A DNA stretch of 20,204 bases, from positions 1 to 20,204 of IMG/VR virus record IMGVR_UViG_3300047497_000022, one strand, 5' to 3'. The position numbers and the translations under genes were made by a program. Below the pieces are notes generated by a model. It had not been told where the DNA came from. It worked only from the letters and a program-made list of their open reading frames with translations, and ran no database searches. The DNA is from a virus. This document shows, piece by piece, positions 13,756-16,448 of this stretch. Numbering within the stretch: position 1 is the first letter of the stretch; each line of letters opens with the position of its first letter.

Positions 13756-14015
13756 GCCGCGTCCCGGTCCGGCTTCGCCGCTCGGATATGGCTCTTCGAC
13801 TCATCGATCTTCCGATCGAGTTCGGCGCATCTCTCGGCCCGTACTGAGTCCGAGAAGCGCGTCCCGCATGAAGCGCACAGGAAGACGTCGAGGCTTGATG
13901 TCGCGAGTCCTTCGACCCGGCGACGAGAGTCGACCTCGTCGAGCACGGCGACGACGTCGACGTCGGCTTCGTACTTACGCCGGAGGTAGTCGAGGGTTTC
14001 ACGGGACCGGATCAA
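13752..14015 (-). CDS. hypothetical small protein with CASC motif
   Basis: An 87-residue protein. The only start fitting the operon pattern is TTG 14015, overlapping the previous stop as TTGA; there is no in-frame ATG or GTG near it. Begins IRSRETLDYLRRKYEADVDV. A helical hairpin leads to FLCASCGTRFSDSVRAERCA, with three cysteines that may bind metal, then a charged helix. Not recognised. The TTG start is the only one among the coupled junctions and may mean low translation. Confidence 0.68.
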   Translation of the reverse strand: MIRSRETLDYLRRKYEADVDVVAVLDEVDSRRRVEGLATSSLDVFLCASCGTRFSDSVRAERCAELDRKIDESKSHIRAAKPDRDAA

Positions 14016-14320
14016 GACACGGCCTGATTTCTCGGGTCCTGCTCGATCTCCGCTAGAAGTCCTTCGGCCCACGCCGTAGCGACCGCCGCGACCTGTACGA
14101 CCTCGTCGAGTAGATGGTGAATCGGGTCCCGATCGTTGAGCGCCATCGCTACTTCTCCGACCTCTTCGACGAGGACGCGGAGTCGCCGGTCCTGATTCCC
14201 GTGAGGCTCCTCGACCCGACCCGGATCGGTGCCCCACTTTCGAAATTGAGAGTCCCGCTCGGCCCGGACAAGCTCGACGGCCTTCGAGTGATACGGGAAG
14301 TTCTCGTCGCCGGCACTCAC
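14012..14320 (-). CDS. MazG-like nucleotide pyrophosphohydrolase
   Basis: A 102-residue all-alpha protein from GTG 14320 (GTGA overlap). The pattern AVELVRAERDSQFRKWG, then RLRVLVEEVGEVAMALND, then HLLDEVVQVAAVATAWAEGL matches the phage MazG-like NTP pyrophosphatase group. E52, E53 and E56 form the EExxE metal site, and D72/E73 with Q76 replace the classical ExxD of the next helix, a variant usual in the 'ELVQVAAVA' branch. It would hydrolyse (d)NTPs to monophosphate and pyrophosphate. Its direct coupling to the HAD/diphosphohydrolase fusion makes a joint nucleotide-pool role likely. Substrate cannot be told from sequence. Confidence 0.85.
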   Translation of the reverse strand: MSAGDENFPYHSKAVELVRAERDSQFRKWGTDPGRVEEPHGNQDRRLRVLVEEVGEVAMALNDRDPIHHLLDEVVQVAAVATAWAEGLLAEIEQDPRNQAVS

Positions 14321-15306
14321 GCCGCGACCTCGTCCTCGACCTTGCCGCGGTCGTCGAGTTCCGGGTGAGCCACCATGAAGCGGAGCACGGCGAGGGCGTG
14401 AAAGGCCACCGCTGCCATGTGTGGCGACTGCGTCTCCGGATCGATGTCCTCGCCTGACATGAACGCCGCGAAGTGACGGCCGAGAGCGCCGAGGCTGAGT
14501 GACCACGAGTAGCCCCGCTCCCAATTCCGGTCCTCGTACTTCCGCGCTCCGATTCCGAAGTGCTCCGCGACCATTGTCAACGCGTCCCACGGGAGAAGGT
14601 CGAAGCGGGCGAGCTTTTGTCCCTTCTCGCCGCCCGTCGTTTCGTTGACGACTCGGACCTCTTCGCCTCGAGGGAAGACGAGGAACGGTTCTCTCCGGAG
14701 CGGCGCTTCGGCTTCCGAAGTCGGATCGAAGGCCGGATCGCCGGGCCGCTCCGGGTGCGCTAGTAACTCGACCGCTCGCTCAAATTCCCCCCAATCGGCG
14801 ACCTTCCATTTGTGGCCCCACTGGTCGCCGCGGTTGCACTCGAGGAGAAACGCGGCCACTCCGGCGGCGCGAAGCTCGTCGACATTCTTCGGACGGTCAT
14901 CGATGAAGGCGTCGAGCTTTACGACGGTCTTGTCCTCGGCAAACGTCAGGGTGTCGAAAGGCACCTTGTGACGGCGGAGCCATGAGCACGTCTTCTCGAA
15001 GGCTCGCGGAGCGAGTCCCCGAGCCGTGACGATATGCAACGTGTGGCCGGCATCTTTGAGCCGCGTCATTGTCTCGACCGCTCCGGACATCGGCACGCCG
15101 AAGGAGAAGACGCCTCCGGACTCGACGCCGTCACGGGCGAAGTCGAGGTATTCGTCGAGCGTCATTCCCCAATCGACGGCGTAAAACTCCCAGCACGTCG
15201 GGTCGGGCATTGACTCTCGGGAGCGCCCCGTCGTGATGTGGACGTGCTCCCGTAGTGCTCCCGTGAAGTCGTAGACGACTCCGTCGAGGTCGATTCCGAT
15301 TCTCAC
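14317..15306 (-). CDS. fusion: HAD 5'(3')-deoxyribonucleotidase plus dATP/dGTP diphosphohydrolase domain
   Basis: A 329-residue protein from GTG 15306 (GTGA overlap). Residues 1-185 are a HAD phosphatase of the NT5C/deoxyribonucleotidase type: motif I IGIDLDGVVYDF (D6, D8), motif II IVTARG (T94), and motif IV DAFIDDRPKNV (D136, D137). After a Pro/Glu linker, residues 214-315 are the DUF5664/dGTP_diPhyd_N domain found in phage dATP/dGTP diphosphohydrolases: GGEKGQKLARFDLLPWDALT, HFGIGARKYEDRNWERGYSW, LGALGRHFAAFMSGEDIDPE, and HMAAVAFHALAVLRFM. The two activities would act in sequence: dNTP to dNMP plus PPi, then dNMP to nucleoside. No frameshift lies between them. Confidence 0.88.
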   Translation of the reverse strand: MRIGIDLDGVVYDFTGALREHVHITTGRSRESMPDPTCWEFYAVDWGMTLDEYLDFARDGVESGGVFSFGVPMSGAVETMTRLKDAGHTLHIVTARGLAPRAFEKTCSWLRRHKVPFDTLTFAEDKTVVKLDAFIDDRPKNVDELRAAGVAAFLLECNRGDQWGHKWKVADWGEFERAVELLAHPERPGDPAFDPTSEAEAPLRREPFLVFPRGEEVRVVNETTGGEKGQKLARFDLLPWDALTMVAEHFGIGARKYEDRNWERGYSWSLSLGALGRHFAAFMSGEDIDPETQSPHMAAVAFHALAVLRFMVAHPELDDRGKVEDEVAA

Positions 15307-15500: not shown

Positions 15501-15793
15501 TTCCCGGCGTCTCGCTTCGCCACGCGTGCCCGCCGTTGCGCCTCGAGCGCCCGAAGCGTCGGGACCTTCACGCGTTCCGGCTTCACGGCTTTGATCGCGT
15601 GTCGCCCGGTCGTCCCGCCGACGAGGTCGACCCAAAGAATCGAGTCGTCGTCGCCGATCGCGACGGCGAGGAATTGGTAGGTCCCCCGCTCGCCCCGGAG
15701 AGTGACTTCGTCGCCGTGCCGGAGATCGCCCCACTCCTCGAGACGAGGTCGCGGGACGATCGTCGGCTTGTACGGCCCGGTCCGGCGGATCAC
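15497..15793 (-). CDS. hypothetical small beta-rich protein
   Basis: A 98-residue protein from GTG 15793 (GTGA overlap). After a basic Pro-rich start (IRRTGPYKPTIVPRPRLEEW) comes a small beta-barrel-like core: GDEVTLRGERGTYQFLAVAI, DDDSILWVDLVGGTTGRHAI, KAVKPERVKV. The end is a basic helix (LRALEAQRRARVAKRDAGK). The core resembles SH3/KOW-like folds ('G..V...g..g.f.....'), suggesting nucleic-acid binding, but I cannot name a family. Confidence 0.7.
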   Translation of the reverse strand: MIRRTGPYKPTIVPRPRLEEWGDLRHGDEVTLRGERGTYQFLAVAIGDDDSILWVDLVGGTTGRHAIKAVKPERVKVPTLRALEAQRRARVAKRDAGK

Positions 15794-16083
15794 TTCGGCG
15801 ACCGGAGGACGAAGAGCGTCGACGCGTTCTGTCGAGCGTGAACGATGCGACGCCCCGTCGGTTGCGCCCGGACGTGGCCGACGTGAGTCCACCAATCGAC
15901 GACCTCGAAGCCGATGCGCTCGGCGTAGTCGAGAGTCCGCTTCGCTCCCGTCCAAAGGTGCCCGCTACTCACGTAGTTTTGGCATTTGACGAGGACGATC
16001 CCTCTCGGCTTCAGCACACGACGAAGCTCGAGGAGTCCGCCGTCGACGAGGAACGGACTCCCATCGTCGAGGACGAGAATCAC
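15790..16083 (-). pseudogene. C-terminal half of a SAM-dependent DNA methyltransferase
   Basis: A 97-residue frame from GTG 16083 (GTGA overlap with the nuclease gene). LLELRRVLKPRGIVLVKCQN followed by YVSSGHLWTGAKRTLDYAER, VVDWWTHVGHVRAQPTGRR and VHARQNASTLFVLRSPK corresponds to the C-terminal half of actinophage/actinobacterial DNA methyltransferases ('VLRPGG.lLVKC.d.vssGr', 'GRRQ.HARrN.STL.VF'). The SAM-binding motif and the DPPY catalytic motif, which should lie just before, are absent because the upstream DNA encodes an intact nuclease. It is unlikely to methylate alone. It may be a decayed gene or a subunit that pairs with a missing half. The frame is intact and coupled, so it is probably still translated. 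Confidence 0.75.
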
Positions 16084-16448
16084 GCGACTTCGACTCCGGT
16101 CACGACGAGCGCCCGGCGGACGAGCTCGATTGCCCGGCCGTCTTTGACCATCCGCCCGGTTACCCGGATCACGCGCCATCCACGGATCGCCGCTTCGGCG
16201 TACTTCTCGCAATCGGCCTCGAAGCCGGCGGGTCGGTTGTGCCGCCCGTAGATTCCGGTCCCGCCCTCGACCTCGACGGCGACGAATCGCTCCGGCCATG
16301 CGAAGTCGAAGCGCCACCGTCGAGGCCGAGCGAAGACGTACTCCCGTGCCGGGTGAAGGACGCAAGCGGGACGGAGGTCGATCGCCATGAGTTGCTGAGC
16401 GAAAAGCTCCTCGAGCGCCGAAATAGACCTCTTTTTCGGCTCGGTCAT
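16080..16448 (-). CDS. small PD-(D/E)XK-type endonuclease (VSR/resolvase-like)
   Basis: A 122-residue protein; ATG 16448 overlaps the previous stop (ATGA), with an in-frame ATG 15 nt earlier as alternative. Residues 43-65 read PRRWRFDFAWPERFVAVEVEGG, where D48, E59 and E61 fit the D...ExE/K catalytic arrangement of small single-domain nucleases. Then comes FEADCEKYAEAAIRGWRVIR with the helix and strand typical of VSR/DUF559/resolvase-like phage endonucleases, and K82 is the candidate lysine. It could nick or resolve DNA during replication or recombination. Its gene is fused by overlap to the methyltransferase fragment. Confidence 0.78.
   Translation of the reverse strand: MTEPKKRSISALEELFAQQLMAIDLRPACVLHPAREYVFARPRRWRFDFAWPERFVAVEVEGGTGIYGRHNRPAGFEADCEKYAEAAIRGWRVIRVTGRMVKDGRAIELVRRALVVTGVEVA

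Follow-up and report, generated by a model that had tools for sequence, protein, structure and literature searches.

We analyzed a single window, the entire 20,204-base virus record, which is a fragment of a soil-type phage. Its minus strand carries the terminase, portal, protease and capsid genes, together with the HAD-DUF5664 and MazG-like genes described here. Among isolates, its large terminase most resembles those of Pontimonas phage phiPsal1 and of phiC31-type Streptomyces phages (35–41% identity). An NCBIfam search of the window proteins gave no match. The gene coordinates of the initial annotation were correct, with both genes on the minus strand:

14317..15306, minus strand: HAD(NT5C)-DUF5664 fusion gene, with a GTG start at 15306 and a stop ending at 14317, encoding 329 aa in a single open frame.
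14779..15300, minus strand: N-terminal HAD deoxynucleotidase domain (aa 3–176), assigned by PF06941 match, VIA-align fold and invariant catalytic residues.
14641..14751, minus strand: flexible linker (aa 186–222) of low pLDDT, with no internal start by codon check.
14347..14640, minus strand: C-terminal DUF5664 / dATP-dGTP diphosphohydrolase domain (aa 223–320), assigned by PF18909 match, identity to Wayne gp51 and kept residues.
14012..14320, minus strand: MazG-superfamily gene (102 aa), whose GTG start overlaps the TGA stop of the fusion (GTGA).

Elsewhere on this strand (15790–16086), a 98-aa ORF aligns with the DNA methyltransferase family phrog_24333 over the C-terminal part of that family alone (147–225 of 238); with an unrelated gene lying just upstream, it appears to be a truncated methyltransferase.

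The HAD-DUF5664 gene is a real, obligate fusion. Its linker contains no ATG, GTG or TTG codon across aa 186–225 and has a coding-like GC3 pattern, so that neither a pair of start sites nor a spurious fusion accounts for the gene. The AlphaFold2 model comprises two confident domains and a disordered joiner (mean pLDDT 86, with aa 197–211 below 50). Both domain calls made initially from the sequence were borne out, as was the single frame: Pfam NT5C (PF06941) matches aa 3–176 with 64.5 bits (cut-off 24.8), and Pfam dGTP_diPhyd_N/DUF5664 (PF18909) matches aa 223–320 with 105.5 bits (cut-off 27). Loss of metal-binding residues had been named beforehand as a possibility; by alignment position, both domains retain their conserved residues.

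In the HAD half, positions D6, D8, T94, R96, K126 and D137, which include HAD motifs I–IV (DxD, T, K, D), are all invariant among eight sequences from different phages. VIA-align placed this domain at Z 16.7–18.4 to deoxyribonucleotidases and at 15.1 or less to other HAD proteins; the nearest folds are Staphylococcus 3bwv (Z 18.4) and human cdN and mdN (about 17). The structure search with the full fusion model returned a list filled by the HAD half, and so informs on the HAD fold, not on that of DUF5664. The HAD half thus has a fold of the 5′(3′)-deoxyribonucleotidase type and is predicted to dephosphorylate dNMPs. NT5C enzymes of known structure act mainly on dUMP and dTMP; dUMP may therefore be the preferred substrate of the HAD half too, which would make the fusion a dUTP-disposal enzyme. 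There is a phage precedent: Dtm_PBS1, a dTMP phosphatase from a phage with dU-DNA, resembles human mdN in structure at low sequence identity (PMC12697855).

The DUF5664 half retains all near-invariant positions of its family (G253, K256, Y257, N261, W262, R277, H278, D289, E291, and H296). Across 127 aligned columns it shares 50% identity with gp51 of Arthrobacter phage Wayne, and it is far more distant from the Acinetobacter phage SH-Ab 15497 protein (36% over 73 columns). We take gp51 to be the purified enzyme called “DUF5664 Wayne,” as it is the matching protein that adjoins the PurA-like gene; that enzyme, assayed in 2026, converts dATP, dUTP and dGTP to the dNMPs with kcat values of 0.48, 0.22 and 0.053 per s, respectively (PMC12884076). 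The identity to gp51 and the kept residues strongly suggest that the window domain likewise hydrolyzes dATP, dUTP and dGTP. Two PHROGs families that match 14317–15306 through DUF5664 (phrog_2252 and phrog_5033) are labeled “endolysin; inhibits RNA polymerase,” a label that looks misleading. The domain is also listed outside bacteriophages, in an iridescent virus of the woodlouse Armadillidium vulgare (BFVD A0A068QKJ3).

We examined how often these two domains occur together. Among 50,697 phage records searched, matches spanning both halves came from Gordonia and Mycobacterium phages; in the annotated cases the domains are on separate genes in the order of the window, mostly as neighbors, with one gene between them in Kumao and OneUp. 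IMG/VR together with the Gordonia and Mycobacterium phages yielded 49 loci with HAD and DUF5664 on one strand within 0.8 kb, falling into 29 non-redundant groups: 17 with adjacent genes in the order HAD then DUF5664, four fused in that same order, six fused in reverse, and two adjacent in reverse. Many adjacent pairs have a stop-start overlap (ATGA or GTGA). In SpeedDemon and DatBoi (L075 and L076) the two genes share a frame, with just a single TGA and several bases between them, a near-fusion. Fusions in the window order are convincing for the window, L119 and L144 and doubtful for L086; the last was not used as support because its DUF5664 part lacks Y257 and H296 and falls short of the Pfam cut-off.

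Retrieval with the HAD domain alone found DUF5664 within 0.8 kb in 25 of 61 clusters, a fraction inflated by a query alignment built from DUF5664-linked sequences, and only once elsewhere within ±6 kb. Even placement of these 26 hits over about 12 kb would put, by our estimate, approximately 3.5 within 0.8 kb; the positional clustering of DUF5664 near HAD is not accounted for by the query bias.

The reverse fusion, with DUF5664 first, corresponds to phrog_37590, to which PHROGs assigns no function; it occurs in Cellulophaga phages phi38:1 and Calle, Leptolyngbya phage Lbo-JY46, and Salinibacter phages. Such proteins in Leptolyngbya, Cellulophaga and Salinibacter phages (L262, L263, and L264) are annotated merely as hypothetical protein or 5′ nucleotidase. 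The exact fused order of the window was absent among the isolate records listed. The initial annotation had considered the fusion order non-standard; this holds for the fusion itself (four of 29 groups), but the pair is common as adjacent or overlapping genes and exists as the reverse fusion.

A tree of 74 DUF5664 domains was used to count fusion events. The window order requires four changes, and well-supported branches force two of these. The order has likely originated repeatedly, although this is unproven because one of the two forced changes depends on L086, whose branch is long and whose domain is degenerate. Reverse fusions form a single group (88/83 support). In alignment A3 two rows may still spill onto the DUF5664 part.

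DUF5664 has a second fusion partner. By path, the nearest tree neighbors of the window domain (L002 and L003) are fused to DUF4406, not to HAD. The loci are:

L266:3776-4897, and L002, L003, L005, L006 and L007: DUF4406-DUF5664 fusions.

The fusions include that of an isolate, Stenotrophomonas virus Jojan60, which is encoded near a DNA polymerase, and Mycobacterium phage Aminay has DUF4406 and DUF5664 as overlapping genes. In DUF4406 domains the Tyr of YxAGP is invariant and the Glu of GxxxE is retained. The L005 domain matches the nucleoside 2-deoxyribosyltransferase (NDT) family phrog_355 (E 9e-23); kinship with NDT rests on this match, because DUF4406 and Wayne DmtZ agreed weakly when their profiles were compared directly. 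DUF4406 is a deoxyribosyltransferase-like domain from an alternative superfamily, likely to act on dNMP, and the architectures suggest a shared theme in which a dNTP pyrophosphohydrolase is tied to a dNMP-consuming enzyme. For comparison, the Wayne DmtZ-DutZ fusion takes dATP to adenine (PMC12884076). The DUF4406-DUF5664 fusion may be a one-protein route from dATP to adenine outside Z-DNA phages.

The gene overlapping the end of the fusion was initially called a MazG-like pyrophosphohydrolase. The 102-aa protein itself has no Pfam or PDB sequence match. PF03819 (MazG) is, however, matched by 23 of the 44 aligned members of its family (best E 1.2e-6), and its predicted structure, a helical bundle modeled with high confidence (pLDDT 89.8), has MazG and PRA-PH proteins among its top PDB matches, although the E-values are weak. 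Its metal motif is EExxE…ExxQ, with ExxQ standing in place of the classical ExxD second half and with Q76 invariant in 52 sequences. It is a divergent member of the MazG superfamily, so that part of the call stands; the label of active pyrophosphohydrolase is not yet safe because of the ExxQ motif with its family-invariant Gln. Phage relatives of this protein numbered zero by tblastn, two by single-sequence scan, and many by alignment scan. Together with L182-L261, window 14012–14320 belongs to a large phage MazG-like subfamily with an invariant Gln where MazG proteins carry Asp. A local search of the collected loci did not show this gene beside other HAD-DUF5664 pairs; in Gordonia phages a gene annotated as MazG-like lies a few genes upstream.

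A connection with 2-aminoadenine (Z) DNA had been raised initially, since DUF5664 is the domain of MazZ. HAD-DUF5664 would then clear dATP and supply dGMP to PurZ, and DUF5664 is indeed present in the phages Wayne (PurZ0) and SH-Ab 15497 (PurZ) (PMC12884076). However, PurZ (PF00709) was found neither in the window nor in 44 other records carrying a HAD or DUF4406 module, nor in five further complete isolate genomes (the Leptolyngbya, Cellulophaga, and Salinibacter phages, Aminay, and Jojan60), while both Z-phage controls were positive. Adding SpeedDemon, DatBoi, Kumao and OneUp brings the PurZ-free isolate genomes to nine, seven with HAD-DUF5664 and two with DUF4406-DUF5664. DUF5664-like proteins are also found in Arthrobacter phages with canonical genomes (PMC12884076). 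Moreover, a phosphatase acting on dGMP would remove the substrate of PurZ. No family A (DpoZ-type) polymerase (PF00476) was found in the 20-kb fragment, and the rest of the genome could differ in this respect; PurZ, too, could lie in the missing part. Phage relatives by terminase have no DUF5664, and therefore offered no closer complete genome usable for purZ. The link to Z-DNA is not supported, and we regard it as highly improbable for this fusion.

We favor, with a probability of roughly 0.6, a reading in which one bifunctional phage enzyme eliminates purine dNTPs, and probably dUTP as well, in two steps, for control of nucleotide pools and not for Z-DNA. The DUF5664 domain would cleave dATP and dUTP, and dGTP at a lower rate, to dNMP and PPi, and the flexibly tethered N-terminal NT5C-type domain would turn the dNMP into the deoxynucleoside; any channeling between them is conjectural. 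The second step would in effect prevent reversal of the first, since a deoxynucleoside is beyond recharging by dNMP kinases. This agrees with the initial proposal that one protein could take dATP and dGTP to nucleosides: the fold, the motifs, the 50% identity to gp51 and the recurrent pairing all point to it, with both activities predicted. HAD-DUF5664 or DUF4406-DUF5664 lies within replication modules in Cellulophaga, Salinibacter and Stenotrophomonas phages, and pool control is favored for this reason; the module would adjust dNTP pools during phage DNA replication. Set against this, destroying purine dNTPs seems costly for a replicating phage. The phage's motive may be any of several: lowering dATP to relieve inhibition of ribonucleotide reductase (RNR), adjusting pools for replication, disposing of dUTP, or blocking competitors. 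Apart from the host enzyme, the genomes lend the first no support, since the RNR large subunit was found in only one of 16 records examined.

An alternative centered on dUTP gives the three activities a housekeeping role. DUF5664 would cleave dUTP or damaged dNTPs, the HAD domain would remove dUMP, and the MazG protein would clean other nucleotides, so that uracil and damaged bases are excluded from phage DNA. The preference of structurally known NT5C enzymes for dUMP and dTMP and the adjoining MazG-type gene fit this scheme, as does the use of dUTP by the Wayne enzyme at about half its dATP rate (PMC12884076). Yet the kcat of that assayed homolog is higher on dATP than on dUTP, and dUMP is normally retained for dTMP synthesis, not destroyed. 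We consider the scheme unlikely, though not negligible.

Counter-defense or superinfection exclusion is a further alternative, and a still weaker one, with little probability in our view. Depletion of dNTPs would block competing phages, or host nucleotide defense signals would be destroyed. Hosts offer a precedent in dNTP-depletion defenses, where draining the pool stops phages, and the temperate phage SpeedDemon, which has an integrase and a repressor, carries the adjacent pair. Against it, no defense-island context was seen, and several pairs lie in replication modules.

Apart from the two-step removal favored for the window protein, a wider reading can be put forward tentatively, as possible but less probable. 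DUF5664 may be the core of an unrecognized, interchangeable “dNTP drain” cassette of phages with ordinary DNA, with HAD or the NDT-like DUF4406 as partner, taking the form of fusions in both orders or of translationally coupled genes and removing purine dNTPs irreversibly. RNR de-inhibition, GC-biased pools and the blocking of competitors are possible purposes. In the literature that we found, DUF5664 has been characterized in Z-DNA phages only, where clearance of dATP and dGTP makes obvious sense. Its pairing with a dNMP-consuming partner in PurZ-free phages raises the question of why purine dNTPs should be destroyed irreversibly when the DNA is ordinary. If the cassette is real, viruses would have in it their own equivalent of the cellular antiviral enzymes that deplete dNTPs, assembled from unrelated parts.

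Several known systems resemble the window fusion in part. The Gordonia phages Bantam, DatBoi, and SpeedDemon have adjacent 5′ nucleotidase and DUF5664 genes in the order of the window and with related domains, but as two genes with a short gap or overlap. phrog_37590 has both window domains in one protein, but DUF5664 precedes HAD, and its IMG/VR members, which come from AT-rich loci, group in a clade of their own. Wayne gp51 is the same domain as the C-terminal half of the window protein, with all key residues; it is without a fused phosphatase and adjoins purZ0 in a Z-DNA phage. In the MazZ-type DUF5664-DUF550 protein of SH-Ab 15497, DUF5664 is likewise part of a dNTP-degrading protein, but the partner is DUF550 rather than HAD and the genome has purZ. 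Dtm_PBS1 is, like the HAD half, a phage protein resembling mitochondrial deoxyribonucleotidase, draining a nucleotide pool at the monophosphate level (PMC12697855); it differs in standing alone, preferring dTMP and serving dU-DNA, whereas the HAD domain of the window is part of a fusion. Finally, Wayne DmtZ-DutZ similarly fuses a dNTP pyrophosphohydrolase with a dNMP-consuming domain, but it does so with unrelated domains (Dut-like and NDT-like), yields a free base, and belongs to a Z-DNA context.
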